DNA of 64,000 bases, from assembly GCA_949358305.1 (NCBI GenBank), contig OX442316.1, positions 2,542,001-2,606,000 on the forward strand. The letters are read 5' to 3'. How positions within the stretch are numbered: position 1 is the first letter of the stretch; each line of letters starts with the position of its first letter. The position numbers and the translations under genes are program-made. This document shows positions 22,574 through 53,983 of the stretch, piece by piece. The notes under the pieces are model-generated. The model did no database searches, was not told where the DNA came from, and saw nothing but the letters and a program-made list of their open reading frames with translations. Origin of the DNA: Strigamia acuminata (Eukaryota > Arthropoda > Chilopoda > Geophilomorpha > Linotaeniidae).

Positions 22574-22860
22574 AGATGGAAAAAATGCTTTTGCAGATGG
22601 AAAAAATGCTTTTGCAGATGGAAAAAATGCTTTTGCAGATGGAAAAAATGCTTTTGCAGATGGAAAAAATGCTTTTGCAGATGGAAAAAATGCTTTTGCA
22701 GATGGAAAAAATGCATTTGCAGATGGAAAAAATGCATTTGCAGATGGAAAAATGCATTTGCAGATGGAAAAAATGCATTTGCAGATGGAAAAAATGCATT
22801 TGCAGATGGAAAAAATGCATTTGCTGATGGAAAAAATGCATTTGCTGATGGCTTTATCAG
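22574..22860. repeat. 21-bp minisatellite, right half
   Basis: About 13 units of GATGGAAAAAATGCTTTTGCA. The first seven carry GCTTTT, the next ones GCATTT and the last two TTGCTGATG, so blocks of units have been homogenised. Because 21 is a multiple of 3 and no frame contains a stop, several frames on both strands stay open through it. These are not genes. Confidence 0.95.
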
Positions 22861-24698: not shown

Positions 24699-24757
24699 TG
24701 GTGGCAGCGGTTAAACCGACTTAAATAACTCAAATTATTCGTAGAATTCTTGCTACG

Positions 24758-26187: not shown

Positions 26188-27295
26188 TTTGGTAGCAGAG
26201 GATGGTTGACGACGCGGCCAACCGTTTGTGATGAATTGGCGGCGATTTTTGTGAAGGAACGGACATCGCGACTTCGTCGGTATCGTCGCAGAGACGTATC
26301 GCCGTTTTCGGGATTTTAGCAAAGCGGACGAGCTTTGACAACGTGTGCGGGCAATTCGCCAACGAATTTGGAACAAAACAGTGTGAGAATTGTCGTTTTT
26401 TCGTGCGAAATAAGCACATTTGCCGATATAAAGAAGATTTTTCTTCTGCGGCGCCATTTTTTTTTGACTTCATCGCGTACGGCCGTGAAGCCAGCAGAGA
26501 ATCGTGTGTACGGATCGACACACGCTCTCATCACGATTCAACAAAGAATACGTCGAAACGACGTAATTTTTGGACCGTTTTTCGTTGAAAATCAACACGG
26601 AAGTCATCGTGCGAATCGATTTTTCGACGGCGGCCGGATTTTTCGTCAAAGCAGACGAAAAACGACGTGTGAGAATAATTTTCAACGTAAGGACCTGTGT
26701 GGGCATAAATTTGCACACAGGCATCAGCTATTTGAGCACCTAGAAGACCAGTTAGCGGGTTAAACGTACGCGCTGGCATTTTCCCGAGGTTTTGTGCACG
26801 GAGCACATCCTACGAAGGTGCGGACGAGCACGTTGAGTCGACGTGCATCGATTTCACGACGTGGGATCAACGAGGGAATTTTTGCGACGCAAACCAACCC
26901 GCAAAACAACGGATTTTCACCTTGCCAACTATTATTTAGTTTTAAGTTGTCGAAATTCATTGTTAATAAGTTTAAGGTTTTGTTTGGGGGTCTTGTAGTA
27001 TCCTTTCCACCCTTTACGCAGTCGCGTAGTGGAATTGTATTTTTGCGTAGGCTTTCTCTGGCCACCGAGTGTCCCGCGGTCCTAGGAGTCCGGTCGGAAC
27101 TCGGGAGATACTACGTAAAGTTTTGCATCTCACTTAGTGAGATTTGTCCAAGGGAGACTGTATAATTTTTCGCCTAAACCTTTTGGGGGTTTACGCCATT
27201 TATAAAAGCGTAAAGAGTGTGTTTTGTGCTTCATTTGGTGTGTGCGACGATTTATTTAGTGATAAAGTGTAATCTTCGCGACGAATCGACTAGAT
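26188..27295 (+). other. Leader of copia family B, copy 1
   Basis: 1.1-kb untranslated leader beginning with the initiator tRNA-Met primer site at 26190. Short open frames here lack gag similarity. A T-run at about 26457-26465 has nine bases, against eight in copy 2. Confidence 0.6.
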
Positions 27296-32453: not shown

Positions 32454-33560
32454 TTTGGTAGCAGAGGATGGTTGACGACGCGGCCAACCGTTTGTGATGA
32501 ATTGGCGGCGATTTTTGTGAAGGAACGGACATCGCGACTTCGTCGGTATCGTCGCAGAGACGTATCGCCGTTTTCGGGATTTTAGCAAAGCGGACGAGCT
32601 TTGACAACGTGTGCGGGCAATTCGCCAACGAATTTGGAACAAAACAGTGTGAGAATTGTCGTTTTTTCGTGCGAAATAAGCACATTTGCCGATATAAAGA
32701 AGATTTTTCTTCTGCGGCGCCATTTTTTTTGACTTCATCGCGTACGGCCGTGAAGCCAGCAGAGAATCGTGTGTACGGATCGACACACGCTCTCATCACG
32801 ATTCAACAAAGAATACGTCGAAACGACGTAATTTTTGGACCGTTTTTCGTTGAAAATCAACACGGAAGTCATCGTGCGAATCGATTTTTCGACGGCGGCC
32901 GGATTTTTCGTCAAAGCAGACGAAAAACGACGTGTGAGAATAATTTTCAACGTAAGGACCTGTGTGGGCATAAATTTGCACACAGGCATCAGCTATTTGA
33001 GCACCTAGAAGACCAGTTAGCGGGTTAAACGTACGCGCTGGCATTTTCCCGAGGTTTTGTGCACGGAGCACATCCTACGAAGGTGCGGACGAGCACGTTG
33101 AGTCGACGTGCATCGATTTCACGACGTGGGATCAACGAGGGAATTTTTGCGACGCAAACCAACCCGCAAAACAACGGATTTTCACCTTGCCAACTATTAT
33201 TTAGTTTTAAGTTGTCGAAATTCATTGTTAATAAGTTTAAGGTTTTGTTTGGGGGTCTTGTAGTATCCTTTCCACCCTTTACGCAGTCGCGTAGTGGAAT
33301 TGTATTTTTGCGTAGGCTTTCTCTGGCCACCGAGTGTCCCGCGGTCCTAGGAGTCCGGTCGGAACTCGGGAGATACTACGTAAAGTTTTGCATCTCACTT
33401 AGTGAGATTTGTCCAAGGGAGACTGTATAATTTTTCGCCTAAACCTTTTGGGGGTTTACGCCATTTATAAAAGCGTAAAGAGTGTGTTTTGTGCTTCATT
33501 TGGTGTGTGCGACGATTTATTTAGTGATAAAGTGTAATCTTCGCGACGAATCGACTAGAT

Positions 33561-36500
33561 ATGGCGTCGGAGGAGAAATGCGACGATTATAAGTCGATCA
33601 AAAAACTAAATGGGACAAATTATGCACAATGGGCGATTGGTGCGAAGTTGTTGTTATCCCAGCAAGGCGTGTGGGACCACGTGACGGGCGACGAGACCGC
33701 GCCGGGTCCCAACGCCACAGCCAAAGAGAAACGGGATTTTAGAGTGCGTGAGAAGCGAGCATGGTCCACGATATGCTTGAGTTGCGAAGAAGCGCAACAG
33801 CTCGTGGCCGTTGCCAAAGATACTTCTAAAGGAGCGTGGGAAGCAATCCGAGATGCTTACCAGCCCACCACACGCGCCCGGAAAGGCAGATTGAGGCGCG
33901 AGTTCCTGCAAATGCATCTAATGGACAATGAGGAGATGATGTGTTTTCTGGCCCGTGTCGACAGAAAAGTCGCGGAACTCGCGAATGTCAAAGTAATACC
34001 GACGGATGAGGAAATTGCATTCCAATACATGGATTTCCTCCCTACAACTTATGAGACTATAAAACAAATAATGTATCACTGGGAGGATTTGGACTTCACC
34101 CCTGCAAAAGTGAAAGACCGATTATTAGGAGAGTATAATCGTTTATTTGAAGCTTCAGACTCCTATGGTATGCGTACACAGGATTCCACTGATAATGCAG
34201 GCGCATTCTTTGGAAAAGGGCGATTCCAACGCGGAAAAGGCGGAAATCAGCCATTTACACCTCGGACTTGTTTTTCCTGTGGCGGCACTGGTCACTTCGC
34301 GAGAGAATGCCCGTCACCGCCCAAACAACAAGCGAATATGCAAAGCCAACGAGGTGGCACCTCTGCACAGCTAGCAAAAGGCACTGCACGAGGACGTGGC
34401 CGTGGTGGAAAGACCAAAAAGGCCAATTTGGGACAAGTTGACATTTTTGATGAGCCCTTGACAATGTTTTCAGCGGCAGTTCACCAAACTGAAGAGGAAG
34501 TCACCTTGTCACCACCATTGTCTTTGATGTCACATTGCGACTTTGATCCGCACTGGTACATAGATACCGGTGCGACAGATCACTTTTCATTTAATAGAAG
34601 TTGGTTCGTGACCTTCAAGCCACTGTCCGGCTATAGTGTCCAGCAGGGGGAAGGGAAGTCTAAAATCGAGGGCATTGGAAACGTGTTGATTACATCTTGT
34701 TATGCAGGCAGATGTAGGGAAATCACACTGCAAAATGTGTATTTTGCGCCAAATTTTAAGAAAAATCTCTTATCGCTGGGCCGGACAGATGAAGCTGGTT
34801 TCACAACTTTTATCAAAAATGGAAAGTTGACCATGTTTAGAGACCGAATTGGTGAGCCTTTCCTTGTTGCAGATAAAACTAATGATCGGATGTACAAAGT
34901 TAACTGCAAAATAGAGGCCAATATTGTGAACACAACTGCACCTTCTGCGCAACAGAGTGCAGCGGTGGGTGGAAATTCGGTCAAAAATGTTGTAAAAAGT
35001 GAAAGTGTCATTAATCCTTTACTAAAAACAGTAGATTTTAAGGCAGCATTACTAAACACATTGAGTGGCGCAGTGCAGACTGCAGCGAAGCAGCAAGTGA
35101 GCGTAAATGCGCTAGTAAATGCGTCAAATCTTAAGAAAAGCGATTTAAATGATACTAACGGGCAAAATAATTCGAATGGGGGAAAAATCGAAAAGATCAA
35201 AGTGAAACCACAGCCAATGGACATTTGGCACTCCAGAATGGGCCATTTTAACGCAAGTGGGATTGCAAAAATGGAAATTTCACCGGATATTTTCGGAGTT
35301 AAACTCTCCGACAAAGAACTTTCACCCTGTGACGCGTGTTCGAAGGCAAAGAGCACTAGGGCAACCTTTTCCCCAATCCCGGAAATTTCTACAAAGGGAA
35401 TTTTGGAAGTAATCCACATGGATCTGTGGGGCCCCCAGCCTTTTAAATCTTTGGGAGGGGCCAGCTATTACCTAATAATTGTAGATGATTATTCGCGTTT
35501 CATGTGGGTGGAAATTATCAAGAATAAGGGGGATACATTTGAGCGCTTCAAACGATGGCAAACACAAGTTGAGCGCAGCACCGGGAAAAAGGTCAAATGC
35601 ATCAAGACAGACAACGGCGGGGAGTTTGTGTCGAAAAAGTGGGATGACTATGCGGCTTCTATTGGGCTTAAGTGCATCCAAACAAACCCCTACTCCCCAG
35701 AAATGAATTCCGTGGCCGAAAGAGCAAACAGAACAATTGTTGGGGGAATTAGAGCCATGCTTTTCGAAAACAATTTTCCAAAGGGTTTGTGGGCAGAATT
35801 AGCCGTGACAGTTGTCTATCTTAAAAATAGATTCCCACATGCAAGCTTGAGTGGGAAAACCCCTTACAACTTGTTTCATAACAAGAAAATGTCGTTGAGA
35901 CATCTAAGATGTATCGGTTCTAAAGTTTTCGTGCACATTCCTTCGCAAACAAGGAGAAGCAAGTTGGAAGAAAGGGCATGGCCTGGGGCCCTAGTCGGTT
36001 ACGCAATTAAGACGCGTGGGTATCGAGTTTGGGACCCCAAGTCCAACCAAGTGATTGCTTCAAAGCATGTAAAGATTAATGAAAATGTTTTTTGGCATGA
36101 ATCGGTGCAATCAAATTCCATCCCACGTGAGCCAGATTTTGTAGCGGCATCATGGGATGAAGATTCAGATGATGAGATCCTACCTGCTGTACAACAGCAA
36201 CAGGTGCCCCCTGTCATACAGCAGTTGTTTCAGGCCCCGAAACATGCGATTCCGAATCCCCAATTAGTCCAACAGGCGGTCGAGCCTGAAGCTGTGGAAG
36301 AAATCGCCCAAGCTGTTGGTGGGATCGAAGAAGAGGAGGAGCAACAAGTGGAAGTTCGGCTTCCAAATCCGACTCTCACCCCCCCACCAGTTAGGAGGAA
36401 CCCACCACGGGGTGTTAAGTTAAAGGGGGACACAGTGAAACAGCGTGCAGCTGCTCCCGAGAAGTTAAAAATTTTAGATATGACACAATGGCAGCGGAGA

Positions 36501-38234
36501 GAAACCGTTAGGCAGAGTGGTGAAACTGCTGGCCAGGTAGATGTAATCTACATAACACCACTTGGCGATAGAATCCGCAGTCGGATTGATGTTGTACGAT
36601 GGTGCAAAGAGGAAAACTATCAGTACGATGGGGGTTGTTTCGACTTTAAGGCAACAGATGAGACCGTTGGGTTCGCCGGTCATGCATCCGTCGAGCCGGA
36701 TACTTTCGAAGAAGCTATGTCCAACCCCAATAAATCCGACTGGCAGGATGCCATGGATGATGAGATTAATATCTTTAATGACAGGAAAGTTTACGAGGAA
36801 GTTGATAAAACCGAGGGGATGAATTTACTGGGAACAAAATGGATTTACAAAATCAAGCGTGACTACACTGGGGCAATTAAGCGTTGGAGAGCACGTTTAG
36901 TTGCGCAAGGTTTTGGGCAGAAGGAGGGAGTTGACTTCACTGAGATATTTTCACCAGTGGTCAACTTTGTTCTCGTGCTTATATTCTTTTGTTCTCTTGT
37001 GGTTCTGCAAGGCTGGCGAGATACACATCTCGACATCAAGTCTGCGTACTTGTACGGAGACCTTGATGTGCCACAATACATTAATATCCCCAAGGGCTTC
37101 CGGACCAAGGAGAACCAACACAAGTGTTGGCGTCTAGTCAAATCCTTATACGGACTTCACCAGTCCGGAAGGATGTGGTATTTCAAGCTCCACGAACGAT
37201 TACTGGAAATAGGATTTACTCCAGTCTTAGGACTGAATTGCGTATATAATTACGGCTCAGATGCCGTACTTTTGTTTTACGTGGACGACATTGTTTTGTT
37301 TAGTCGTGATGCTTTCGTTGAACAATGTATCATCGAGTGGATTCAAGAGAGCTTTGAAATTGTCAACCTTGGACCGGTGACTCTTTTATTAGGGATTCAT
37401 TTTGAAAGGAAAAATGGGGACATTTTAGTACATCAAAAGAGTTATATTGCGAAATTAGTCGAGAAATACGACATTGATCCGTGCCATAAAATTAAAATCC
37501 CAGTCACAGTCGGTACCATGATACAGAAGGTACAACCGGGTGAACAAATAAACTCGACGTTCCCATACAGGTCCCTAGTAGGGAGTTTACTCTTTATCGC
37601 GAATAGAACGCGTCCAGATATTCTCTTCAGCGTTATTGTATTATCTCAATACAATGAGACCCATTCTAACAGGCATGTTAAAATGCTAATACAAGTGTTG
37701 AGATATCTGGCGAATACCCCCAACTATGTTATCAACCTGGCAAATTGTAAGAACAATAATTTAACGGTTTACACCGACGCGTCCTTTGCCTTGGATCAAG
37801 ACAGTAGGAGAAGCTTTGGTGGCCACATAGTTTATTTAGGAGGGGTTCCGATTTCATGGAATTGTCGAAAACAATCCATGACTTCATTGAGTATAATGGA
37901 AAGCGAATTTCTCGCAGTTGTCGATGGCGTGAGAGAAGTGATATGGCTTGAACGCCTGTACGAAGCCGATATCATCTTGTGTTTCAACCGAAATGTCCCT
38001 TGCGTCTACGCCGATAGCATGCCGGCAATCAATTATGCGAAAAACAAGATCGAGAACCGTGCAAATAAACATATAGATGTTAAATTGCACTTTCTTCGTG
38101 ATTGGTATGAAAAAGGCGTGTTTAGTATTAAACATGTGCCTGGCGAATTGAACATCGCGGATTTGATGACAAAATGGTTGCCGCGCCCCAGATTATGTCA
38201 GCTCTGTGAGCATATTTTTGTTGCAGTCAAATAG
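33561..38234 (+). CDS. Copia family B gag-pol polyprotein, copy 2
   Basis: 1557 aa, same start and stop context and the same domains as copy 1 at +6265 bp. It differs from copy 1 at codon 1117 (GGT Gly at 36909), giving the family-typical VAQGF box in the reverse transcriptase. All catalytic motifs are present (protease DTGATDH, integrase D-D-E, RT YVDD, RNase H). With LTR 2 upstream and the truncated LTR 3 downstream, this is the better candidate for an active polyprotein, although the damaged 3' LTR would affect full-length cycling. Confidence 0.95.
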   Translation: MASEEKCDDYKSIKKLNGTNYAQWAIGAKLLLSQQGVWDHVTGDETAPGPNATAKEKRDFRVREKRAWSTICLSCEEAQQLVAVAKDTSKGAWEAIRDAYQPTTRARKGRLRREFLQMHLMDNEEMMCFLARVDRKVAELANVKVIPTDEEIAFQYMDFLPTTYETIKQIMYHWEDLDFTPAKVKDRLLGEYNRLFEASDSYGMRTQDSTDNAGAFFGKGRFQRGKGGNQPFTPRTCFSCGGTGHFARECPSPPKQQANMQSQRGGTSAQLAKGTARGRGRGGKTKKANLGQVDIFDEPLTMFSAAVHQTEEEVTLSPPLSLMSHCDFDPHWYIDTGATDHFSFNRSWFVTFKPLSGYSVQQGEGKSKIEGIGNVLITSCYAGRCREITLQNVYFAPNFKKNLLSLGRTDEAGFTTFIKNGKLTMFRDRIGEPFLVADKTNDRMYKVNCKIEANIVNTTAPSAQQSAAVGGNSVKNVVKSESVINPLLKTVDFKAALLNTLSGAVQTAAKQQVSVNALVNASNLKKSDLNDTNGQNNSNGGKIEKIKVKPQPMDIWHSRMGHFNASGIAKMEISPDIFGVKLSDKELSPCDACSKAKSTRATFSPIPEISTKGILEVIHMDLWGPQPFKSLGGASYYLIIVDDYSRFMWVEIIKNKGDTFERFKRWQTQVERSTGKKVKCIKTDNGGEFVSKKWDDYAASIGLKCIQTNPYSPEMNSVAERANRTIVGGIRAMLFENNFPKGLWAELAVTVVYLKNRFPHASLSGKTPYNLFHNKKMSLRHLRCIGSKVFVHIPSQTRRSKLEERAWPGALVGYAIKTRGYRVWDPKSNQVIASKHVKINENVFWHESVQSNSIPREPDFVAASWDEDSDDEILPAVQQQQVPPVIQQLFQAPKHAIPNPQLVQQAVEPEAVEEIAQAVGGIEEEEEQQVEVRLPNPTLTPPPVRRNPPRGVKLKGDTVKQRAAAPEKLKILDMTQWQRRETVRQSGETAGQVDVIYITPLGDRIRSRIDVVRWCKEENYQYDGGCFDFKATDETVGFAGHASVEPDTFEEAMSNPNKSDWQDAMDDEINIFNDRKVYEEVDKTEGMNLLGTKWIYKIKRDYTGAIKRWRARLVAQGFGQKEGVDFTEIFSPVVNFVLVLIFFCSLVVLQGWRDTHLDIKSAYLYGDLDVPQYINIPKGFRTKENQHKCWRLVKSLYGLHQSGRMWYFKLHERLLEIGFTPVLGLNCVYNYGSDAVLLFYVDDIVLFSRDAFVEQCIIEWIQESFEIVNLGPVTLLLGIHFERKNGDILVHQKSYIAKLVEKYDIDPCHKIKIPVTVGTMIQKVQPGEQINSTFPYRSLVGSLLFIANRTRPDILFSVIVLSQYNETHSNRHVKMLIQVLRYLANTPNYVINLANCKNNNLTVYTDASFALDQDSRRSFGGHIVYLGGVPISWNCRKQSMTSLSIMESEFLAVVDGVREVIWLERLYEADIILCFNRNVPCVYADSMPAINYAKNKIENRANKHIDVKLHFLRDWYEKGVFSIKHVPGELNIADLMTKWLPRPRLCQLCEHIFVAVK

Positions 38235-38251: not shown

Positions 38252-38693
38252 TGTTGGGATATGCCCAACTGTTTGAGATTTATTAGTTGCATATTTATGG
38301 CTAAATGCAACGTGCATGTCTTTACTTTGCTGTGACTTAGTTAAACTAGTTGATCCTGATTTTTTACCCTGCTTGTTATGTGCCGCAACTAGTTTATTTA
38401 CTTGTAAAGATGTGCCTTCTCGTCGTCCGCTCAAATGAGCAATATTCGTTTAGTTTTTCCATTGCTTTTGAGTTGTTTATCGCTTATTTGCTCCTCCCTT
38501 ATTGTTTATCATGTAAAGGACAAGTCATTGCTTGCTAACAATGATTTGTTCTATTGTAAGCTTGTATTCATACTTTGAGGGCGGCTAGCCTCAAAGCAGT
38601 CGTTTTTACTGTGGTTCGTGACGATTAAAGATGGCGGTCGCGCAATGCGAGTTCCCGCACCCATTAAATCATGTCTCAGCTCTATTTTCCTGA
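38252..38693 (+). repeat. Copia family B LTR 3, 3'-truncated
   Basis: Matches LTRs 1 and 2 up to TATTTTCCTGA and lacks the following TGTCCGGCGCC...CATCA. The Ty3 pol frame continues directly from here. Confidence 0.88.
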
Positions 38694-41679
38694 AACTTTT
38701 AACGATTATTTTTCAGCGATCACATTACGTAAACCCGAGAGACGATTGAAAGGCGCGGATCAAAATGCTTTAGAAACGGTTGGAAGTTTCTGGGACGACA
38801 TTTTATATCGGGGAAAAACGAAATTAACGGAGATATTTGTGGTCAAAAACCTCGGCCGACCATTATTGGACGGCGACACATGTGAGGATTTAGGGATCGT
38901 GAAACGCGTACAACACGTAAAAACGACGGAGACAAGTCACACTTCAGTACGACCGGAAATCGAATATCCTGAACTTTTCCAGGGTCTTGGACGTGTCAAA
39001 ATCCCGTACAAAATTCGATTACGAGATGGAGCGATTCCGCATGCTTTGACCACACCGCGTCGTGCCCCGATTCCGAAATTGAACGAGATTAAGAAAAATT
39101 TGGATAAAATGTTACTGTTGGGCGTTATTGTACCAGTGGACGAACCAACCGATTGGTGTTCTGGCCTCGTTACAGTTCCGAAACCAGATGGGACCATCCG
39201 CATGTGCGTCGACTACGTCCCACTCAATGTTTACATCAAACGCGAAATTTTTCCGATGCCAAACACAGAGAATTTATTCGGACGCCTGGGAAAAGCGAAA
39301 TATTTTTCGAAATTAGATGCGAATCATGGATTTTGGCAATGCGAGTTGGACGAAGAATCCCAACTCCTCACCACGTTTATAACGCCATTCGGACGTTTTA
39401 AGTTTACTCGTTTACCATTCGGGATCACGGCAGCTCCAGAAGTTTTTCAAAAACGGATGACAGAGATTCTTGAGGGACTGATGGGTGTCCAATGTAACGT
39501 CGACGACATTTTAGTTTACGGAGACACGATCGAAGAACACGACGAACGATTGCGGGCTGTTTTAAAACGATTATTTGAGAAAAACGTAACGATGAACAAA
39601 GAAAAATGCGTTTTCGGCGTAACGAGCATTAAATTTTTGGGCCATGTTATCGATTCCAATGGAGTACACATCGACGAAGATCGAATCGAGGCAATAGCAA
39701 AAATGGCCGCACCGCAGAACAAATCGGAACTTCGTAGTTTTCTTGGCACGATTAATTACTTGGGACGTTTCATCCCACATTTAGCTACGGTAGCTCATCC
39801 GCTGAACGAATTATTACGAGAGAAAAACGAATACTTGTGGAGCCCGATACAAAACGAGGCGTTTGTGAAATTAAAACTCGCACTATCGGCTAAACCTGTC
39901 CTTGCGTGGTTCGATCCAAAGAGAGAAACCGTAATCTCTTCCGACGCATCCAGTTACGGAGTTGGAGCTGTTTTGAAACAAAAACAGGATAGCGGCGAAT
40001 TTCGACCGATTGCATACGCGGCAAAAACATTTACATCAGCTCAAACGAATTGGGCACAAATTGATAAGGAGGGGTACGCGCTCACTTGGGCGTGCGACCG
40101 CTTCCAAGATTTCATTACAGGTATTCCTATTCGATTAGAGACCGATCACAAGCCGCTCGTCCCGATCTTTATGACGAAACCACTGGACGAATTAACTCCG
40201 AAACTCCAGAGGATGCGCTTACGGTTACAGCGTCACGCTTATACGGTAGTTCATATTGCGGGAAAAGATTTAGGGCTAGCCGATACTCTCTCTCGCCGAC
40301 CAATCGAAAGAACTGGAGACGATTACGATTTGGATCAAGAAATTGTCGCTTACGTACGTTTGGTGGCCGAGTCGTTTCCAACCACGGACGAACGACTGCA
40401 GCAGATTGTGAAAGCACAACGGGACGACGAAATTTGCAAACATTTGATCCAATTTTCACGACATTGTTGGCCGCCGAAAAACGAAGTTCCTCCGCTACTT
40501 AAAGATTACTGGCAACATCGAACGGATCTGACAGTCGACGAGGGAATTTTACTCAAAGCATCTCGTATTGTAATTCCGCCAGCTCTTCAGAAGGAAACAT
40601 TGGCAAAAATTCACGATGCCCATCTCGGAATAACCAAATGCAGAGCATTGGCAAAACAATCTGTTTGGTGGCCTGGTTTGTCAACACAACTTGAAAAATT
40701 AGTTAAGAATTGTCCGGAATGCATCAAAGAGACGATAAATCGACACGAGCCATTAATGCCATCCGAATTCCCGAAACGGCCATGGCAAAAGATTGCGATG
40801 GATTTGTTTAAACTCGAAAACAAATGGTACCTCCTCGTCACCGATTATTTCTCGCGATTTCCATTTATTTACCCAATGTCAAGTCTTCACGAGCGGACAA
40901 CAATAACACATTTAAAATCTTTATTCTCAGAGCAAGGATCACCGGAAATTGTTTACAGCGACAACGGGACACACTTTGGACCATTGTTAAACTCCGAATT
41001 TAGAGAATTTGCCAAAGAATGGAAGTTCACACACGTTACGAGCAGCCCCGGATTTCCTCAAAGTAACGGATTTGTCGAAGCTGCGGTAAAAATTATAAAA
41101 CGGAGTTTAAAGAAAGCAGACGATGGATATCGGGCACTGCAATTATATCGCGCGACTCCCCTCGCAAATGGATTCTCACCTGCCGAACTTCTAAATGGAA
41201 GAGCCATTCGAAATTTATCAGTCCCAGTCATCAGCTCAAAACTGATCCCAAAAACACCTGACGAATCGATATTACTTCGAAAAGAAGAAGACAGACGGAA
41301 CGCGCAAAAGAAAAATTACGATAAACATCACGGAGTCCGAGAATTAATCCCACTAAAAGTCGGTGAAGATGTCTGGATCACCGATTTACGACGAGAAGGA
41401 CGGATTAAACAACTCGATTCATCACCCAGATCGTACATCATTGAAACTGATAAACGAACAATTCGACGGAACCGATTCCATTTATTACCACTTCCCAGCG
41501 TTACTCTGGAAACCGAGAATGAGGAGGCGATTCCCGAAGAAAAAGAAGAAGAACCAATTAACACAGATCACTCAGCAGCTCCTAACAAAGAAGTCACTTG
41601 TCCTAGGGCTCCCACAGGATCTTCGTACGTTACTAGATCGGGCAGAGGAGTAAAGCAACCGAATCGTTTGAATTTATAA
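38688..41679 (+). CDS. Ty3-type gag-pol, 3' part (RT, RNase H, integrase)
   Basis: Frame open to TAA at 41677. The first residues continue the protease region interrupted at 25721. Reverse transcriptase follows with the palm box VPKPDGTIRMCVDY (about 39175) and the catalytic box NVDDILVYG (about 39500). RNase H has SSDASSYGVG (about 39940). The integrase has the HHCC finger H-x4-H...C-x2-C (40608-40730), then catalytic Asp in AMDLF (40797), Asp in YSDNGTHF (40957) and Glu in FVEAAVK (about 41075). No chromodomain is visible after the integrase. The apparent N-terminal methionine at 38671 (MSQLYF) lies in copia LTR sequence and is not a real start. The gene is intact except for the insertion. 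Confidence 0.92.
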
Positions 41680-43875: not shown

Positions 43876-46800
43876 TTAGATTTTGACACTCTTTTTGTTT
43901 CTTTTGCGGACGAATGAGAATGCATTAGAAAATTCGAAATGGATTGCAGTTAAAACAGAAAGGCCAAGAGTGAGACCAAAGGTGTTGGCAATGTCAGAAA
44001 CGAGGGCCACAAAAGAATATTTAAATTCTTCGGCAATAGTTTCGATTTTATTGGTGGGGAAAACAACATTAATTACTGTGTTATCTGGTAGAAAAGCAGG
44101 GAAACTGAATTCATTGATTTTGTAGAATGGATGTTCACAAGGTGGTACACACAAACATTCCTTTTCGACATCAGTTTTGGTGTGCATTTTATAATACAAT
44201 GTTTGCACTGCTTTGGCTTTTGTTGAAGAGTTGCAGAAGGCGACGTTTTCCTTGATTGCAAATGGCATACTAGTAAAAAAAAAGGAAATGAATGATTCAA
44301 ACAAGTCTACTGCCGTCCTTCCGTGTATTTTCGAAATTACCTGCACAATTGTTTGCTTTTAACCTTATTTTCTATGCATTAACCTTTACACTTGTAATAT
44401 TCCGTTAAATTAGCATTGCACGGTTTGGTTTTGGTGTTTAGTCGATTTATCTGAAAATTGATTTTAAGAAGAAGAAAACATTAAACATAATTTCTAGTTC
44501 ATGTAAAGTTATAATTATTTTGCAAATCTCTGAGGCAAGAATACAAAATAAACACATTTAGTCTTCTAATCATAGCAATTGTGGTCATATTAGGTGGTAC
44601 AGCAAAATTTAAATTATAAGAAAAATTAGGGTCTTCTGTAGGAGTGATGTAAACCTGAAATTAAAATGATTACAATATTCAAGTAGCTGAAATCATTCAC
44701 TCGAGGTACAGACATGTAAGTAATCTGGGTAGCAAGGATTTTCTGGTTTAACGGAAATACCATCCATAAACATTGTGTACAATTGATATTTTATTGGACC
44801 TGTACGAATAAATAGAATAAATAGAATTTTTTTATTTGTTTCTCGCTGCTCAGTTATTAATTACCAAAGGAATGTTTAACGCAAGTTCCTTGTGGATTAG
44901 GGAGCCTAGTGTATGTCCGAACATCACATAGTGTATAAGGAAATTGACTCTGAAAAATATAAAATGCATTCAAAAATCCAGAAACATTTTTAAAAAAAAT
45001 TTAAGCAAAGATTGTTAGTATTAAGTTTTTTTGAAAGCTGCGTGCTTATGATTTGTTAACGCGAGCATTATACACTGTTGCGTACAGCTACAGCTGTTCT
45101 CGTTGTTCCTAATGTATTCTAAGAAGAAGTAAACTTTATGTTCGTTTTGCAACTTTAATTCGGCTTGATTCACTTCATTTGCTGCCAACTATAAAGATTT
45201 ATATTTGCTTCGATAATCTCTGATGATATTGTGTCAGAGATAAACATTAATATAAGAATAAGAATGTACTTACAACAAACGTGAATATTTCTGGAGGTGG
45301 TGGATCTACATAAGCTAGTTCCCACAGTTTTTGAACAGTAAATGTTTTCCAATTGACAAGCTCCAATAAGTCTACTTGGCATTTTGTATTGTTTTGCTTC
45401 TGCTGTTTGAAATACTTTGACTTATGAAATAGAAGTTTTGGATTATATGCTCCTCCACAAATGATAATATTAGGGAAAGTCACATTAACTGGATCTTCTA
45501 TTGAAACAGTCATTTGAATAACCTTATTCATATAGAGTGATATTTTTTTCTGAACCAAAAATACACTAAACCCAAACAAGCAAACGTATGACAGCAAATA
45601 TAACATTTGCTTCCACGACAGGTTTTTGGGCATTTGAATTGTATTCGTTGTTTGATAGGTTTTGAAGCAAGCTTCAATTCTTCTGGTCAAGTTATTGTTC
45701 TTCGGTAGTTTTACTCTATTCCAATTTGCAACAGTCAAAACCAAGTTAACGATAGAAAGTAAAGAGAGTCCCAACCAAAGTCCAAGATTTCCACCAAAGT
45801 CAGACAGCAGACTGAACAAATCATAGATCAAGCGTTCTTTCAGAACTGTTATATCATTGTTAAGGTAAAAGGTGAATTCAGATAAGCTGTTGTTGTGTTT
45901 TTGGAATTGGAATTCAGGATTAATATCTATGTTTTCACAGCTTCTTGTACAACCACAGTCGAGTTGTGGAGTCGGCCCAATAAGACTGTCAGTGTTTTTT
46001 CTGTACATTGTTAAAGTTTCTCTTGAATTGTTGCAGAGCTGAAGGAGCTTTCCATAGGAATGTTTTGGTCTATAGGGTAGCCTGTTAATTATTAATACGA
46101 AACAAATAACAAAATCATGTTCCGCCTACATCTTTCATTACGCACTTACCAACATGGGTTTTTGTCTAAAATTGTTTCCACACATTTTTTACCGCAAGCT
46201 ATGTAATCTTTCATTTCTACGCAAGGATTCTTTCTTGTATTAATAAACTGATGCTGAAAGAAAACTTACTTCAGTTCAAATATTCAAAATTTAAAATATT
46301 ACAGAAGAGTTGGTATTTGTCTGCCAAATTCCATTTTTTGCACACAAAAATACATGAGTCTCAATTATTTGAGTTATTTCACAGAAATGAAAGTGTTATT
46401 TACTGTCAATTATGATTTTTACTTGTTGTGCTTATGTGTGTGCACAGAGAGTGATTTCTCAGTTAGATTTTGGCATCTGGATACCAATCAGACACTTTAA
46501 AAACTTGTTTTACCATTCTAAACTGCAGTCCTATTTTTACATTGGTAGATGATGGTGTAGGAATTGCGTATTGAAAATCTAAAGGTAATGATAATGCTAC
46601 CTATAATTAAATTCATGAGGAGATGAGTTTGCGAAAGGATACAAGTGGGTTATACAGTAATAGTTATACTCTAATACCTTGTTTGCACTAGAAAGTTTGG
46701 GGCTAGCGGCTAACCCAAAGTTTAAATATAGTTCTGGCCTGATATTGGCTTAAAAAGTTCAGGCTAGATCGTTTGCACCAAAAAGCAACAAGCCACATAT

Positions 46801-48083
46801 CTAGGCTACCATACAATAAACTGACCAGGTTACGCACAGAATTGTGGGAAGTGACCTTGGCAGTTATCTAGTTCACACAACTGGATTAAAATTATATAGT
46901 TTAAACATTTTTAAACTAGATAATTTTGGGCTAGATGCGTTCGCACCAACAACCAGAACTAGATTTAAACTTTGGGCTAGCCTAAACTTTCTGATGCGAC
47001 ACAAAGTATTACAACGGCATATAACTTAATTATAACTAAGGCCTGAATTACAACCTCATTTTATGAAATAAGTGGGTCAATTCAATGCAAGTATGGTTTC
47101 TTATAATTTTGCTAATATGATTTACATAGTATTAATCTCAGAGTTAAGTTAGAATCTTTACTGTTATTGCCCCTTGTGAATGTAGGTTTAGTTTGTGAAT
47201 TCATTTCCTTCTAATTAAAAGTAGCTTACAAGGGTTTGAGATCTTCCTGGCATTAATTCTGGTATTTGCATGAGAGCAGTAAATTTTGTATTTATTTTTG
47301 AACCACTCATTGCTCTGACAACTGAAATTGAAAAGTAAATTTTTATTTTATTTTTGCTGCAAAAGAAAACTTTAGTTTTAGCTCGCCTTCTATTTTTGTA
47401 CATGTTCCCATAGGAAATAGTTGCTGACTGGTTCGTATGTCTAAAGGAATGTGTACCTAAATGACAACCGAGGATATAAATTATACATCGTTGCTGTCAG
47501 GCTACTACTGCTTAAATCCATTAAAAACTTACTTTTCTATGTCGTCTCGTATCATATGCAAATACATTTTGAACAACATGAAGACTGTAGTTCATATTCC
47601 ACACTTTAGTAAGATCTGCATCAGTGGCAGTTATAAGTCTGTTCAGTGGGAGCATAATAACAGATAAATCTACACTTTCAGGGTGTGATTTATAGTAATC
47701 CAACACATACTCATTTACTGGAATACATATGTGTACATTGGGGAACTTGTACGTTTCAAGCTTTTCCTCATACACATCAACGGCTTTTGGGTTTTCCAGA
47801 TAATAAGAAATACGATCAGAGGTTTGATAAGTGTAGACGATGATGCAGGCAATGACAAGAAGAGTCCAAAATAAACGAAATGTAAACGAATTATTTTTAT
47901 CAATCATTGGCCGGAACTCTCGAGGGATATTTTTTTCTCTTTCTAGTCGTCTGTAAACATCTTTTACTGCTCGTGTAAGCCTCACACTGGACTTTTGGTT
48001 AATTCTCATTATCCTCTGCATAAAGTAAAGTGGAAATGAGTTTGTCATTATTATGAGAGAGAGTATTTTTATTTACTTACCAT
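43876..48083 (-). CDS. Tandem (double-unit) DEG/ENaC sodium channel gene, second unit with in-frame TAA
   Basis: Exons by eye on the minus strand: ATG 48083-48081 (GTAAGT donor follows); 48015-47533; 47456-about 47415; about 47314-47230; 46253-46150; 46081-45274; 44949-44865; about 44800-44733; about 44660-44555; 44448-44339; 44271-43876. Unit 1 has TM1 (FRLFWTLLVIACIIVYTY), a finger segment with GTCTKIE, a cysteine-rich thumb (NPCVEMKDYIACGKKC) and TM2 with the G-x-S selectivity motif (LGLS). The 808-bp exon 46081-45274 carries thumb, TM2, a ~34-residue linker (45720-45619) and TM1 of unit 2 without a stop. Unit 2 repeats the plan: GTCVKH, INRLNTKTKPC, CLCVPPC and TM2 with LGLS. Intron positions and phases match between units. 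TAA at 44381-44379 interrupts unit 2 in the thumb. DEG/ENaC channels are trimeric Na+ channels of the plasma membrane. The first exon and the 47415/47314 junction are uncertain. Confidence 0.75.
45541..45807 (-). other. Fusion joint: TM2 of unit 1, linker, TM1 of unit 2
   Basis: One open frame in one exon encodes FGGNLGLWLGLSLLSIVNL (TM2 and selectivity motif), then a basic linker with KLPKNNNLTRRIEACF, then MLYLLSYVCLFGFSVFLV (TM1 of the next unit). No stop, splice acceptor or AATAAA lies between. An internal Met (IQMPKN) just before TM1 could in principle start a separate unit-2 protein. Confidence 0.8.
46676..47008. mobile_element. MITE-like inverted-repeat element in a DEG/ENaC intron
   Basis: Left end CTTGTTTGCACTAGAAAGTT and right end (as complement) CTTTGTGTCGCATCAGAAAG continue for about 100 bp as imperfect inverted repeats, with GGCTAGC and CCCAAAGTTTAAAT shared. 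No coding content. It lies entirely in the intron 46254-47229. Superfamily not assigned. Confidence 0.6.
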
Positions 48084-48084
48084 T

Positions 48085-48385
48085 TGTGGAAACTGGCGGT
48101 TTCCAAAGTGAAATAATTTAGTTGAGTGTTTTGACCACCGTGGCACAAGTGAAAACTTACTTGTGACCCGGATTAAATGTATTCTTGGAATTTAAGGATT
48201 AACTTAATCCTCTTGTTTTATATATCTAAAATTTTGAAAAAAAACTCACTGTCTTTTCAAATGTAACCTTGTCTACATCGTTTCTTTGAGTCTACAACAA
48301 ACTTCGATCCGAATCCGACTCCATCCGTCGTTTTAACAAGTTTTAGGAGTGTTTCATTTATACAAGTTGCTCGTGCAACGTCTCA
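48085..48385 (+). repeat. 5' LTR of the BEL/Pao element
   Basis: 301 bp, TG...CA ends, same as 53678-53978 by eye. Confidence 0.95.
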
Positions 48386-48434
48386 TGGTGCCGAAACCCG
48401 GGAAACATTTTTGAAAACGAACCAGAACGCGAAA

Positions 48435-51400
48435 ATGGACGATTTGGCAAGAAGTCGTGCACAAAGGGAAACACAAAGAAGAAGCGTGCGTGCGCTTTTT
48501 GAGAAATTGAAGAAAGAAATGGCCGAGGATCCCCTCAACGAGGTACGATTATTATGCATACAAGCCCAACTAATCACAAAACGTTTGAAAATCGATAAAC
48601 TGGACGCAATAATCGCCGACGGGATCACCGACGTGAACGAGGTGGACCAAGACGAATTCGAAGCGGAAGAACTGCAAGACGAGATGACCGCCGCCCGAAT
48701 CACACTCGAAGTCGCCTTGAAAGAACTCGCGCCAATGAAACAAACACCACCACAACAACCACCACAAGTACCACTCGTAAATATACCACCAGTTAACCCT
48801 CTTTTCGTTCCACCTGTGCAAAACCCAAATCCAGTCCAACCACAATGCGCAGTGATGAAACTGCCGAAGCTCGAGGTCGCCAAGTTTAAAGGCACACCAG
48901 AAACCTGGACGGGGTTCTGGTCAGATTTTGAATTGAGTGTCCATAATAACGCTTCTTTGCCCAAAACAGCCAAATTTGTGTACCTACGCTCGTTAGTTGA
49001 AGGTCTTGCAGCGAATGCAATCAGCGGACTGACTGTAACCGAGTTAAATTACGACACTGCCATTTCCCTCCTCACAAATCGATTTGGGCAGAAGGAACAA
49101 ATTGTCGGTGCACACATGGCCAAACTGCTCGAAATGCCATCCGTGAAACGAGTAGAAGATGTGGCGGCCCTACGGAGACTCTATGATTTCTGCGACCTGC
49201 ATGTTAAAAGCCTCGAAAACCTCGGAGTACCGACGGAAACCTTTGGCCCATTGTTATGCCCAATACTCGCGCGTGCTGTGCCAACCAGCATACAACATGA
49301 TTTTGCACGTCCACGAGGAGATGCACCTTGGGTTGTTAAAGAATTTTTGGACTTTTTTAGATTCGAAGTAGCGATGCGCGAACGTACGGAAGCCGCCGAT
49401 AAAACCAGTAAACCACAGCAAGACTCGACGGAAGTCCCGAATACCAAAAAAGAAGAGGTGAAGAAAACAAATTACAAATCTAATAATCACAGTTCCGCTT
49501 CAGCCCTTTCCAACATCGTTTACAAATGCACGTTTTGCGAGAAAGAAGATCACAAGAGTCCAGACTGTCCGTTGTCCGTGGAGAAACGAAAGGAAGCGTG
49601 TTTCAAAGCCCGACGTTGTTATCGATGCTTAAAAGAGAATCATCAGGCTCGCCAATGCAACACCCGATTTAAATGCCGAAAATGTGAGCAGAAACATCAC
49701 ACGTATTTGTGCGACAAGGAAGACAACAAGAAGACGGAAACAACTTTGACTTCGGCCGTTCAAGAATCAACAGGTACGGAAACCGTGATGTTCCTGCAGG
49801 TCGTCGTGTTGGAGGCCAACGGAAACAACGAGAAGAGAAGAGTCCAATGCTTCTTGGATGGGGGATCCCAAAGAAGCTTTATAACTGAAAAACTGTCGAG
49901 AGAACTGCAACTAGAGAAGATTGGTGAGCAGTCAATCGCCCTCTTGACTTTCGGATCTACTGAACCAACAATTGCCAAACGGAAACAGGTGAAGTTAAGT
50001 TTGAATAACTGTGAAAATAAAAATTGCAATTTAGAGATCAAAGCGCTTGAGTCACCCTGGATAACTCCGACATTACGAGGAAAACCTGACGAACGAGTGT
50101 TGGAAAAACTGAAGAAATACAACATCAAACTGGCTTACGACAACAGCGTTCACAGGGACGACGGCGTTTCCATCTTAATTGGCGTCGACAACTTTTGGAG
50201 AGTTACAACGGGAAAACAGCAACGCATCGACGAAAATCTCATGGCAATCGAAACCATATTTGGATGGACGTTACACGGCTCAACCGGAGAGACTGAAACA
50301 ACCGTGTCGTCTTTAGTACGGGTAAACAAGATTTTAATTGCCGATAATACAGATGAACTTTTAGAAAAATTCTGGAACTTGGAATCGATTGGGATTCGCC
50401 ACGAGACTATGGAACCGGGAATCGATGAAGTGGACACGTTGAAACGATTCAAAGAGCAGATCGAGTGGGTAGATGACCATTACGAAGTGGGATTCCCGTG
50501 GAAGATTGACCGCAAGGAATTGAACGACAATCGAGATGTTGCAAAAAAGCGTTTGTGGAGTTTAATTAACCGTTTTCGAAAAAATCCCAAGTTATATTTA
50601 GACTATAAAAAAGTGATCGACGAACAACTCGCCTCCGGAATCTTGGAAAAAGTTCCGAAGAACTCGAAACCAGACAACCCGTATTATATCCCTCATCGAC
50701 CAGTAATTGACGAAACTCGAGCCACAACAAAGCTAAGAATTGTGTATGACGCGTCGTCACACGCAAAAGGATGTTTATCGCTAAACGACTGTCTGAGTAA
50801 GGGTCCCAATATGTTACCTCATCTAATAAACATTGTTTTGAAGTTCCGAACCGGCAAATACGGCGCAATCGGCGACATCGAGAAGGCCTTCCATCGAATA
50901 CATCTCAAGACGGACGAACGAGACGTCACACGACTTTATTGGATTGAGGACGGGTGGAACGGTGAAGAGTCGGTAAAACTAATTGAATTACGCCAAACTC
51001 GAGTTCCATTTGGGACAGGACCCAGTCCATTTTTACTAAATGCAACAGTAAAAGAACACGTCGACAAGTTTGAAGACCAATACCCGGACACATGCGACAA
51101 GCTGAAAGAAGACTTGTATGTAGACGATTTTGTAACGAGTATTGACAATTCGAACAAGTTAATTCAAGTTTATGATGAGAGTCGTGAGATTTTGCAAGCC
51201 GCGAACATGAAATTAACCAAATGGAAGTCGAATGATGTGAAATTACAAGAGAAAATTATACGAGATGACCCAGATTGTGACGTGACAGTTTTTCAAAAGA
51301 AAACTAAGGTTTTGGGGGTAGTTTGGGATATTGAGTTAGATAAATTGGGATTAGACATTAGTGCATTGATTAACGAGATTAACTTGACCAAATACACCAA

Positions 51401-53714
51401 GAGATTTATTGTGAGAATTACCGCCATGATTTTTGACCCGTTGGGAATGGCAAACCCCTTTGTGATAACTGCTAAAATTATTTTTCAGGAACTTTGGAAA
51501 TTAAATGTTGGGTGGGATGACGTCATTCCAGAATATGTGAAGATAAAATGGGAAAATTGGTATGTTCAGATACCCTACCTCGAAAATTTAAATTTAGAGC
51601 GCAAATTGTTAAATTGGGGAGGAAATTGTAGGAAGAGGATTCACATCTTCTGTGATGCCAGTCCGAGAGCGTATGGCGTAGTAGCCTACACTCGAGTTCT
51701 GGACAAAACAAATGCTGTTAATATTGATTTTATCATTTCCAAGTGTAGAGTGGCGCCTGTAAAGGAACTAACATTACCAAAGCTGGAACTGATGGGCGCG
51801 CTACTGGCAACAAGACTGATTCCAACATTGAAAGCGACTCTTGGGTGTGAGGATTTCACAATTTGGACCGATTCCAAGATAGTTTTGCACTGGATCCGCG
51901 ACACCAAGAACCGACCAGCGACATTCGTGTACAATCGTGTACGAGAAATTGTCGAGAATACATCGAGAGACGATTGGCGCCACTGCCCTGGAAAGGATAA
52001 TCCAGCCGACCTGGTTACGAGGGGAGTGAACGTAAAACAGCTCACAGAAGAACCATTTTGGTTGAAAGGACCGGCGTGGCTTGCAGACAACGAATCGAGA
52101 TGGCCAAATGAAGACGTGAACGTGAATCCAATCATCGAGGACGACGAAGAAGAAGTAAAAGTGACATTAATAACAATTGCAGAACCAGACATCGATTACA
52201 CTCGATTTAGCACTTGGAAGAAATTAAAGAGAGCCACCGCTTGGACGTTTCGATTCATAACAAATCTGAAAACGAAAACTCGAAATGGTGAACCGTTAAC
52301 AAACAACGAACTGAAACTAAGTGAACAATATTGGGTGAAATACTTGCAGCAAACCAACTTCGGAGATGAACTTAAACAATTAAAAAACAAAAAACTGTTG
52401 CAAAAAACCTCGCTAATATTTAAACTTGCGCCTATTCTAGATGACAACGAAATAATTCGAGCAACCCACAGATGGCAACTGGCAGACGTGCCTCGAGACG
52501 TTCGAGAGCCCTGTATTCTTCCTCATTCGCACCCGATTACCAAACTAATCATACGTGGTGAACACGAGAGATTACTCCACGGTGGACTGGCCGACACACT
52601 AGCCAGTTTTCGAGAGCAGTTTTGGGTATTACGAGCACGAAAAACCATCAAGAGTGTGATCAACAAATGCGTGCAGTGCAGGAAAGTACAGGGGCGGTTG
52701 GCTAAAGAAAAGTGGGGTTTACTGCCTGTGGATCGAATTACACCTTGTGAACCTTTTGCAATTTGTGGTATTGACTTTGCCGGACCTCTCTACACCAAGT
52801 TAGGGGCAAAAACGTATATTGCGCTGTTCACATGCGCAGTCACGAGAGCGATCCACCTCGAGTTGGTTTCAAATTTGTCAACTGAGCGTTTCATAGATGC
52901 GATGAAGCGTTTTATTTGTCGGCGAGGAATCCCTAAAACGATATATTCCGATAATGCGAAAACATTTATACGAGCAGATAAGGAGTTGAATTTATTTTTA
53001 AAAAGTTTGCCAGAAGACCAGTTTCAGGGATTCGTTACGGAGAAACAAATTAAATGGAAGTACATAGTTGAGACCGCACCTTGGTGGGGCGGTTTCTGGG
53101 AGCGCATGGTGCGTTCCGTAAAACTTACATTGAAGAAAACGATCGGGAAAAACTCGCTTGACTACGAAGGACTTGTTACGATCTTGGCAGAGGTTGAGGC
53201 CGTTGTAAATTCGAGGCCTTTAACCTATGTGTATGATAATCCTAGTGAGCAACTACCCCTTTCCCCTTCTCATTTTTTAATAGGAAGACGAATATCATTC
53301 CTGCCAACACTACAGAAGTATTCAACCGGCACGGGATCGAAGGAAATTGTTTTGAGAGCGTGGAAATATCGTCAGACGTTGGTGAGTCGGTTTTGGGATC
53401 GTTGGACCAAAGAATACCTCATTGAGCTTCGACAACATCGTGGAAATACAAGTCAAACAAAATTTGATGTTGGCGACGTTGTCATCATCGAAGACCAGAA
53501 CAAACCGAGAATGACGTGGAAGCTGGGCCGCATCACCTCCGTGAAGGAAGGACGAGACGGTTTGATTCGCTCCTGCGAAATTCGGATGTCGAATGGAACT
53601 CTGCTTCGAAGACCCATCCAGAGACTGTGCAACCTCGAGGTAGAAACCGAAGTTCCAGTCTGCCGGGACGGGGGGACTGTGGAAACTGGCGGTTTCCAAA
53701 GTGAAATAATTTAG
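48435..53714 (+). CDS. BEL/Pao gag-pol polyprotein
   Basis: 1759 aa from ATG 48435 (MDDLARSR), chosen because codons upstream of it in the open frame contain no ATG. Order: coiled N-terminus; gag (DUF1759-like) around KLEVAKFKGTPETW (about aa 146). Three CCHC-type knuckles follow, CTFCEKEDHKSPDC (364), CYRCLKENHQARQC (394) and CRKCEQKHHTYLC (414). The protease is of DUF1758 type with FLDGGSQRSFI (473). Reverse transcriptase has RPVIDETR...RIVYDASS (755) and YVDDFV (895). RNase H has FCDASPRAYG (1072) and WTDSKIVLHW (1144). The integrase has the HHCC finger (about 1376-1418), GIDFAGP (1445), YSDNAKTF (1504) and the Glu in PWWGGFWERMV (1549). A DUF5641-type C-terminus starts near 1677. The stop codon (53712) lies 37 bases inside the 3' LTR, so the last 11 residues are LTR-encoded. 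Confidence 0.95.
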   Translation: MDDLARSRAQRETQRRSVRALFEKLKKEMAEDPLNEVRLLCIQAQLITKRLKIDKLDAIIADGITDVNEVDQDEFEAEELQDEMTAARITLEVALKELAPMKQTPPQQPPQVPLVNIPPVNPLFVPPVQNPNPVQPQCAVMKLPKLEVAKFKGTPETWTGFWSDFELSVHNNASLPKTAKFVYLRSLVEGLAANAISGLTVTELNYDTAISLLTNRFGQKEQIVGAHMAKLLEMPSVKRVEDVAALRRLYDFCDLHVKSLENLGVPTETFGPLLCPILARAVPTSIQHDFARPRGDAPWVVKEFLDFFRFEVAMRERTEAADKTSKPQQDSTEVPNTKKEEVKKTNYKSNNHSSASALSNIVYKCTFCEKEDHKSPDCPLSVEKRKEACFKARRCYRCLKENHQARQCNTRFKCRKCEQKHHTYLCDKEDNKKTETTLTSAVQESTGTETVMFLQVVVLEANGNNEKRRVQCFLDGGSQRSFITEKLSRELQLEKIGEQSIALLTFGSTEPTIAKRKQVKLSLNNCENKNCNLEIKALESPWITPTLRGKPDERVLEKLKKYNIKLAYDNSVHRDDGVSILIGVDNFWRVTTGKQQRIDENLMAIETIFGWTLHGSTGETETTVSSLVRVNKILIADNTDELLEKFWNLESIGIRHETMEPGIDEVDTLKRFKEQIEWVDDHYEVGFPWKIDRKELNDNRDVAKKRLWSLINRFRKNPKLYLDYKKVIDEQLASGILEKVPKNSKPDNPYYIPHRPVIDETRATTKLRIVYDASSHAKGCLSLNDCLSKGPNMLPHLINIVLKFRTGKYGAIGDIEKAFHRIHLKTDERDVTRLYWIEDGWNGEESVKLIELRQTRVPFGTGPSPFLLNATVKEHVDKFEDQYPDTCDKLKEDLYVDDFVTSIDNSNKLIQVYDESREILQAANMKLTKWKSNDVKLQEKIIRDDPDCDVTVFQKKTKVLGVVWDIELDKLGLDISALINEINLTKYTKRFIVRITAMIFDPLGMANPFVITAKIIFQELWKLNVGWDDVIPEYVKIKWENWYVQIPYLENLNLERKLLNWGGNCRKRIHIFCDASPRAYGVVAYTRVLDKTNAVNIDFIISKCRVAPVKELTLPKLELMGALLATRLIPTLKATLGCEDFTIWTDSKIVLHWIRDTKNRPATFVYNRVREIVENTSRDDWRHCPGKDNPADLVTRGVNVKQLTEEPFWLKGPAWLADNESRWPNEDVNVNPIIEDDEEEVKVTLITIAEPDIDYTRFSTWKKLKRATAWTFRFITNLKTKTRNGEPLTNNELKLSEQYWVKYLQQTNFGDELKQLKNKKLLQKTSLIFKLAPILDDNEIIRATHRWQLADVPRDVREPCILPHSHPITKLIIRGEHERLLHGGLADTLASFREQFWVLRARKTIKSVINKCVQCRKVQGRLAKEKWGLLPVDRITPCEPFAICGIDFAGPLYTKLGAKTYIALFTCAVTRAIHLELVSNLSTERFIDAMKRFICRRGIPKTIYSDNAKTFIRADKELNLFLKSLPEDQFQGFVTEKQIKWKYIVETAPWWGGFWERMVRSVKLTLKKTIGKNSLDYEGLVTILAEVEAVVNSRPLTYVYDNPSEQLPLSPSHFLIGRRISFLPTLQKYSTGTGSKEIVLRAWKYRQTLVSRFWDRWTKEYLIELRQHRGNTSQTKFDVGDVVIIEDQNKPRMTWKLGRITSVKEGRDGLIRSCEIRMSNGTLLRRPIQRLCNLEVETEVPVCRDGGTVETGGFQSEII

Positions 53715-53978
53715 TTGAGTGTTTTGACCACCGTGGCACAAGTGAAAACTTACTTGTGACCCGGATTAAATGTATTCTTGGAATTTAAGGATTAACTTAA
53801 TCCTCTTGTTTTATATATCTAAAATTTTGAAAAAAAACTCACTGTCTTTTCAAATGTAACCTTGTCTACATCGTTTCTTTGAGTCTACAACAAACTTCGA
53901 TCCGAATCCGACTCCATCCGTCGTTTTAACAAGTTTTAGGAGTGTTTCATTTATACAAGTTGCTCGTGCAACGTCTCA
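53678..53978 (+). repeat. 3' LTR of the BEL/Pao element
   Basis: Begins within the end of the pol reading frame and is followed by CCATT. Confidence 0.95.
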
Positions 53979-53983
53979 CCATT

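Follow-up and report, generated by a model that had tools for sequence, protein, structure and literature searches.

A probably damaged member of a large centipede gene family with two DEG/ENaC channel units head to tail in one frame

Channels of the DEG/ENaC family are studied as trimers of separate subunits with two transmembrane segments (TMs) each, and laboratory concatemers set the ratio and order of those subunits (e.g. PMC4529235). In this work we analyze a DEG/ENaC gene in a 64,000-nucleotide stretch of the centipede Strigamia acuminata (contig OX442316.1, positions 2,542,001 to 2,606,000; hereafter the window), which, with good confidence, we assign to a large centipede family whose genes carry, in one frame, two head-to-tail DEG/ENaC units (units 1 and 2), and regard as a copy damaged recently. 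Among solved structures, the top match of both units is BRTNaC1 (broad-range thermal receptor 1, Scolopendra; PDB 8ymr, 8ymw), at 64.6 bits for unit 1 and 55.6 bits for unit 2, with the DEG/ENaC thumb and TM2 in common. BRTNaC1, a centipede antennal sensor called trimeric (PMC12804983), differs in being a single unit of 431 aa. The next match by molecule is PDPNaC1 (Scolopendra; PDB 9jf7; 55.1 bits for unit 1, 29.8 bits for unit 2), also a centipede antennal DEG/ENaC, but one of 421 aa and described as a homotrimer of two-TM subunits (PMC12714832). The head-to-tail layout of the window gene recurs in the UniRef entry T1ITL7, an 805-aa protein of Strigamia maritima that is a database prediction only and whose top solved-structure match is again BRTNaC1 (49.2 bits). 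Engineered head-to-tail dimers, trimers and tetramers of ASIC1a gave functional channels in a study that argues for ASIC1a tetramers (PMC4529235); those concatemers are laboratory-made from identical subunits, whereas the centipede units are natural and non-equivalent. Searches of an open-access library, a coverage outside which subscription papers and preprints mostly fall, listed no paper on a natural DEG/ENaC concatemer, so that an earlier description may exist.

The splice model of the window gene (minus strand, 48083-43876) comprises 12 exons (E0-E11) and 806 codons plus the final stop, with GT-AG splice sites throughout bar one GC donor after E2. Its parts, the premature stop and the adjoining BEL/Pao long terminal repeat (LTR) element are:

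48081..48083, minus: E0, start codon ending its exon (ATG, then a gtaagt donor), abutting the LTR (splice model)
47533..48015, minus: E1, unit-1 N-terminus, TM1 and early ectodomain (ASC domain, 40.4 bits; splice model)
47830..47886, minus: unit-1 TM1, model residues 45-63 (hydropathy; coordinates by hand)
47387..47456, minus: E2, unit 1, GTCTK motif, GC donor (splice model)
47230..47321, minus: E3, unit-1 ectodomain (splice model)
46514..46600, minus: E4, unit-1 ectodomain (splice model)
46150..46253, minus: E5, unit 1, NPCW end, phase-2 intron (splice model)
45274..46081, minus: E6, junction exon with unit-1 thumb and TM2, linker, unit-2 N-terminus and TM1 (open frame)
45730..45786, minus: unit-1 TM2 with GLS filter, residues 379-397 (hydropathy, filter pattern; coordinates by hand)
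45610..45729, minus: predicted cytoplasmic linker, residues 398-437 (basic composition; GxS-to-FPN distance)
45553..45609, minus: unit-2 TM1, residues 438-456 (hydropathy; coordinates by hand)
44865..44949, minus: E7, unit 2, GTCVK motif (splice model)
44714..44799, minus: E8, unit-2 ectodomain (splice model)
44556..44654, minus: E9, unit-2 ectodomain (splice model)
44341..44450, minus: E10, unit 2, KQLC end, phase-2 intron, premature stop inside (splice model)
44379..44381, minus: in-frame TAA at codon 663 of 806, unit-2 ectodomain before TM2 (splice model)
43876..44269, minus: E11, unit-2 end with TM2 and final stop (ASC, 42.5 bits; splice model)
43954..44010, minus: unit-2 TM2 with GLS filter, residues 763-781 (hydropathy, filter pattern; coordinates by hand)
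48085..53977, plus: BEL/Pao LTR element inserted at the gene's start codon, in antisense orientation

The central element is E6. A preliminary description of this locus had claimed that the 808-bp exon 46081-45274 runs without a stop from the thumb and TM2 of unit 1 into TM1 of unit 2, and this is borne out by a 292-aa stop-free frame (45247-46125) that contains the exon and reads, in order, unit-1 thumb, TM2 with GLS filter, basic linker, TM1 and unit-2 early ectodomain. The flanking exons it had named (46253-46150 and 44949-44865) fit E6 with GT-AG sites on both sides, and the conserved intron phases it had noted reappear in the splice model, where phases 0, 1, 0, 0 and 2 follow in the same order in both units, with the phase-2 introns after NPCW in unit 1 and KQLC in unit 2. 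The linker, described there as cytoplasmic and about 34 residues long, is basic and measures about 40 residues in the splice model. Against a cut-off of 23.6 bits, unit 1 matches the Pfam ASC domain (PF00858) at 84.6 bits and unit 2 at 69.4 bits, the latter scored with X at the stop position, and single exons pass too. Four hydropathy peaks lie at the expected places in seven of eight models, including that of the window gene; the eighth, L071, misses the third peak at the threshold used. In TM2, the G-x-S filter pattern matches all 34 unit-1 rows and 24 of 25 unit-2 rows, the remaining row reading VGLS and falling outside the pattern. A His-Gly motif before TM1 is a known feature of ASIC channels; direct reading of the window model shows it ahead of neither TM1, and we made no membership criterion of it.

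The E6-E7 intron is 324 bp long in the window and 132 bp in the paralogs L032 and L033; it includes a 55-codon open stretch (45188-45021, minus strand), perhaps an insertion.

The junction exon is widespread in the S. acuminata genome. Of the 143 matches scored with the E6 protein as query, 137 span TM2 to TM1 (129 stop-free); a second search with the junction exon of a distant paralog gave 144, of which 143 span TM2 to TM1 and 44 are spanning exons absent from the first set (42 stop-free). The union holds at least 181 exons spanning TM2, linker and TM1, the window exon included, with 171 of the 181 stop-free in the matched stretch; the counts are lower bounds, as the best candidates alone were scored, and the stop-free exons are related, not independent. 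Because the queries were themselves junction exons, the counts are enriched for fused copies and uninformative on the number of unfused relatives. A neutral 37-codon linker would be open with a probability of about 0.08 (assuming 62% AT), so that an open linker in one copy alone is weak evidence. By identity to the window exon, the 137 exons of the first search were divided into tier 1 (49-100%; 46 exons, window exon included), tier 2 (35-48%; 35 exons) and tier 3 (20-34%; 56 exons), and 31 of the 46 tier-1 exons lie on C6 between 3.72 and 4.18 Mb. Judged by the 149 E1-type matches listed, out of a larger number, 102 of the 137 junction exons have an E1-type exon no more than 8 kb upstream, without another junction exon in between. 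An E1-type exon also separates the members of each of the five adjacent junction pairs less than 6 kb apart, and no three-unit genes were seen when sought in these five pairs through missing E1 exons.

Two groups of three junction exons have identical or near-identical scores, one on C4 (3023090, 3036455 and 3049804) at a spacing of about 13.4 kb and one on C8 (11121935, 11151894 and 11212860). This likeness suggests very recent duplications of double channel genes.

Spliced models extend the comparison from the junction to both units. Paralog loci were modeled with a spliced protein-to-DNA aligner written for them, its profile seeded by the window model. The aligner scored 363-3472 on paralog loci, and 32-46 in seven controls with DNA that was shuffled, unrelated or of the wrong strand. 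The covered part is free of stops and frameshifts in 24 of 29 tier-1 paralog loci; the loci measure about 3.8 kb each, so that most hold unit 1 only in part, and seven were lengthened by joining neighbouring loci. One open frame over both units is kept in L033 and L034 (from the E0 ATG to the stop, with E0 placed by eye), in the tier-2 locus L069 (from ATG to stop) and in T1ITL7; it is not kept in the window copy. L039 is open across both units with a start only within E1, and L032 likewise with no clear start; L070 and L072 are partial models, reaching positions 675 and 541. Some paralogs thus encode two-unit chains of about 800 aa, and intron phases agree across the spliced models. The E0 arrangement, ATG followed by gtaag upstream of E1, was recognized by eye in four of seven paralog stretches (L064-L067).

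The layout is shared with a second species. Among 3303 candidates drawn from a protein database, a profile built on the seven spliced paralogs of alignment A2 picked out two with an E value of 0.001 or lower, both from S. maritima and both named Uncharacterized protein: T1ITL7 and T1ILX1 (362 aa), the latter spanning the junction. The alignment of T1ITL7 to the window model is head to tail, with 289 identities in 798 columns (36%), and the protein matches ASC at 111.1 bits in three stretches. Candidates had to share short words with the query and to measure 0.55 to 1.75 times its length, so that the lack of matched two-unit proteins outside Strigamia means little. A full-length protein search with the window model gave one weak nematode match only. 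A term search of the paper on the S. maritima genome (PMC4244043) met with ENaC, degenerin, pickpocket and sodium channel nowhere in its main text.

A tree built from 50 segments that cover thumb and TM2 (19 of unit 1, 17 of unit 2 and 14 of a single group) supports a single fusion predating the expansion of the family. All unit-1 rows lie on one side of a branch with support 97/52 (96% of bootstrap trees), as do all unit-2 rows for a branch with support 100/96 (100% of bootstrap trees), and the order is alike within both groups: tier 3, then tier 2 with S. maritima, then tier 1. Because the separate unit groups share this order, one fusion followed by whole-gene duplication, before the two Strigamia species parted, is the history these segments point to. 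T1ITL7 stands with the tier-2 paralog L069 in each of the two unit groups, and in that of unit 1 also with L070. The tree program flagged several long branches, which leaves the deeper joins unsure, including whether units 1 and 2 are sisters; BRTNaC1 falls outside both units, beside L006, in a join flagged as two long branches meeting. Six single-group rows (L001, L002, L004, L006, L020 and L022) are modeled in their C-terminal part only, and L002 and L004 have an N-terminal ASC exon just upstream. Between paralogs, both units are under similar purifying selection, with ratios of nonsynonymous to synonymous substitution rates (dN/dS) of, for example, 0.26 and 0.25 in the two units for the pair L043-L032. 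The units differ just before the filter, where GG is present in 33 of 34 unit-1 rows and in none of the 25 unit-2 rows, and are therefore not interchangeable.

Whether such a chain would stay whole bears on its linker. A polyprotein, in which one chain would be cut in the cytoplasmic linker to give A (unit 1) and B (unit 2) at a fixed 1:1, so that the fusion sets an expression ratio and not a covalent stoichiometry, seems unlikely to us. It would suit a linker that is basic and varies freely in sequence while staying open. Linker length is narrow, however, with 91-103 residues from GxS to FPN in 33 of 36 sequences (the searched motif is absent from the remaining three), and the sole invariant linker residue in the seven paralogs of alignment A2 is one lysine, so that no cleavage motif stands out.

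The window copy itself is probably recently damaged and non-functional, and the complete two-unit channel is probably not made from it. The position of its TAA is a sense codon in all 29 paralogs that cover it, and the E2 donor is canonical in all 16 with the E2 intron placed (33 paralogs examined in each case; the aligner disfavours GC). The assembly is reported at a quality value (QV) of 59.6 and 98-fold HiFi coverage (PMC10556566), which makes a sequencing error at the TAA unlikely. At the start codon, the BEL/Pao element has identical LTRs of 300 bp each (48085-48384 and 53678-53977), a 6-bp target duplication, ACCATT (48079-48084 and 53978-53983), and Pfam domains Pao peptidase, RVT_1 and integrase H2C2. 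Since the sequence upstream of paralog L066 resembles, by eye, the far flank of the element, the insertion separates the coding sequence from what was once its 5′ flank. The dN/dS between the window copy and paralogs (0.38-0.63, 4 pairs) is like that among paralogs (0.27-0.66, 13 other pairs), which argues that function was lost recently. The earlier claim of two units in one frame thus stands for the junction exon and for both ASC units, but not for the frame of this copy from end to end.

Two ways around the TAA were considered and rejected. A tiny frame-keeping intron of 36 bp would delete residues of the cysteine region common to unit 1 and would be shorter than the shortest intron of the window model (59 bp); skipping E10 would change the phase.

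It is improbable, in our estimate, that the window copy is still functional, whether by read-through of its TAA, by the TAA being a variant of one haplotype or through a role of the truncated chain, which would comprise unit 1 and, from unit 2, TM1 and a portion of the ectodomain. The otherwise intact frame and the paralog-like dN/dS would fit such a copy. The LTR element at the start codon is a second lesion, to which the GC donor is added, and identical LTRs imply a recent insertion, after which little decay is expected even if the copy is dead.

We find it more improbable still that each locus makes two proteins by alternative promoters, splicing or polyadenylation, the open junction being a minor read-through form. 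Some tier-1 paralogs have a Met just before unit-2 TM1, and the window E6-E7 intron contains an AATAAA, which also tells against a single chain; yet polyadenylation in that intron would still take in unit-2 TM1, and neither AATAAA nor ATTAAA occurs within the window E6. Because 171 of the 181 junction exons are stop-free in the matched stretch, a unit-1-only product needs a splice or an end unseen in the DNA, and T1ITL7 is likewise predicted as one 805-aa protein. An assembly artefact or chance read-through of two neighbouring genes is barely credible, since misassembly-prone tandem clusters are outweighed by the HiFi assembly at QV 59.6 (PMC10556566), by 181 homologous exons over several chromosomes and by the same layout in S. 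maritima.

Several further observations weigh against a conserved two-unit chain. The case is built on DNA sequence. For 35 of the 137 junction exons, no E1-type exon lies within 8 kb among the matches listed; 10 of the 181 junction exons contain stops; and queries that find fused copies only leave unfused relatives uncounted. The aligner profile itself started from the window model, and unit 1 is covered only partly in most tier-1 loci. Five of the 29 tier-1 paralogs are damaged (L035, L036, L041, L048 and L054), and L071 (tier 3), where both units are visible, needs one frameshift in its model. The linker is weakly constrained, with dN/dS of 0.30-2.00 in 16 of 17 pairs (30-39 codons; one pair not computable). 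The AlphaFold model of T1ITL7 (alignment A4) has a mean predicted local distance difference test (pLDDT) of 45.9 and a predicted template modeling score (pTM) of 0.29, giving no support for unit packing.

Elsewhere in the window, two near-identical tandem open reading frames (ORFs) for Copia-type polyproteins lie on the plus strand (27266-31969 and 33531-38234), with direct repeats about 6.26 kb apart that suggest shared LTRs. A domain scan of the first ORF placed a methyl-CpG-binding domain (PF01429, 41.6 bits) between its integrase and reverse-transcriptase parts, and one Copia stretch compared with a phage collection gave no match. The pair is flanked by a gag-like ORF, recognized by eye (24725-25756, plus strand), and a pol ORF with RVT_1, RNase H and integrase (38668-41679, plus strand), as if it had inserted into one Gypsy-like element. 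A short tandem repeat at 22403-22894 (plus strand) encodes CRWKK-like units, and an open serpin ORF at 60970-62112 (minus strand; Pfam Serpin, 379 bits) is 67% identical to a serpin of S. maritima. Scans of the 64-kb window for tRNA and Rfam families found nothing.

Single-unit DEG/ENaC genes coexist with the double ones, given that L011, L012, L015, L024, L026 and L027 each yield, at one locus, a single-unit model from near TM1 to TM2, some of these models carrying a frameshift or stop. The genome has 93 ASC matches; among the best 30, taken as loci, 29 include the TM2 region and reach a stop within 75 codons past the modeled part, as both single-unit genes and the ends of unit 2 should; the thirtieth, L014, is an N-terminal exon.

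In undamaged paralogs, the two units would be translated as one A-B chain with four TMs, its two ends and the linker cytoplasmic, and A and B would be neighbours in one pore. Such a pair does not by itself fill a DEG/ENaC pore, which takes three subunits, and the remaining position would go to another chain, most likely a DEG/ENaC protein with a single unit; alternatively, three pairs could form two trimers, or two pairs a tetramer. The asymmetry of TM2 between the units fits a heteromer, and the functional engineered dimers of ASIC1a (PMC4529235) indicate that a fused pair is mechanically feasible. The undamaged relatives thus probably encode natural A-B concatemers that give two unlike subunits to a pore, and effects of a two-unit chain on stoichiometry would follow from this arrangement. 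Of the natural four-TM concatemer that the preliminary description had proposed, the architecture has good support across the gene family, but a working product of the window copy has none, given that its unit 2 contains a nonsense codon and that an LTR element abuts its start codon.

The large tandem expansion of the family and the antennal channels BRTNaC1 and PDPNaC1 point to a putative sensory role (heat, acid or chemical). In S. maritima, lineage-specific duplicates are reported to be enriched for sodium transport and taste perception, and insect odorant receptors and known arthropod light receptors to be lacking (PMC4244043). We advance only tentatively, as possible rather than probable, the wider proposal of a genus-wide sensory superfamily of more than 150 genes, whose covalent A-B pairs, with a constant asymmetry in the pore helix (no GG before the filter in unit 2), would make obligate heteromers of a stoichiometry (2+1, double trimers or 2+2) that is not known for the DEG/ENaC family. 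The genes point to a large candidate family of sensory receptors in centipedes, whose relative S. maritima is without insect odorant receptors. A concatemer that occurs naturally and is preserved in evolution would dictate which two unlike subunits pair in vivo, and in what order, and would thereby make the question of stoichiometry testable.

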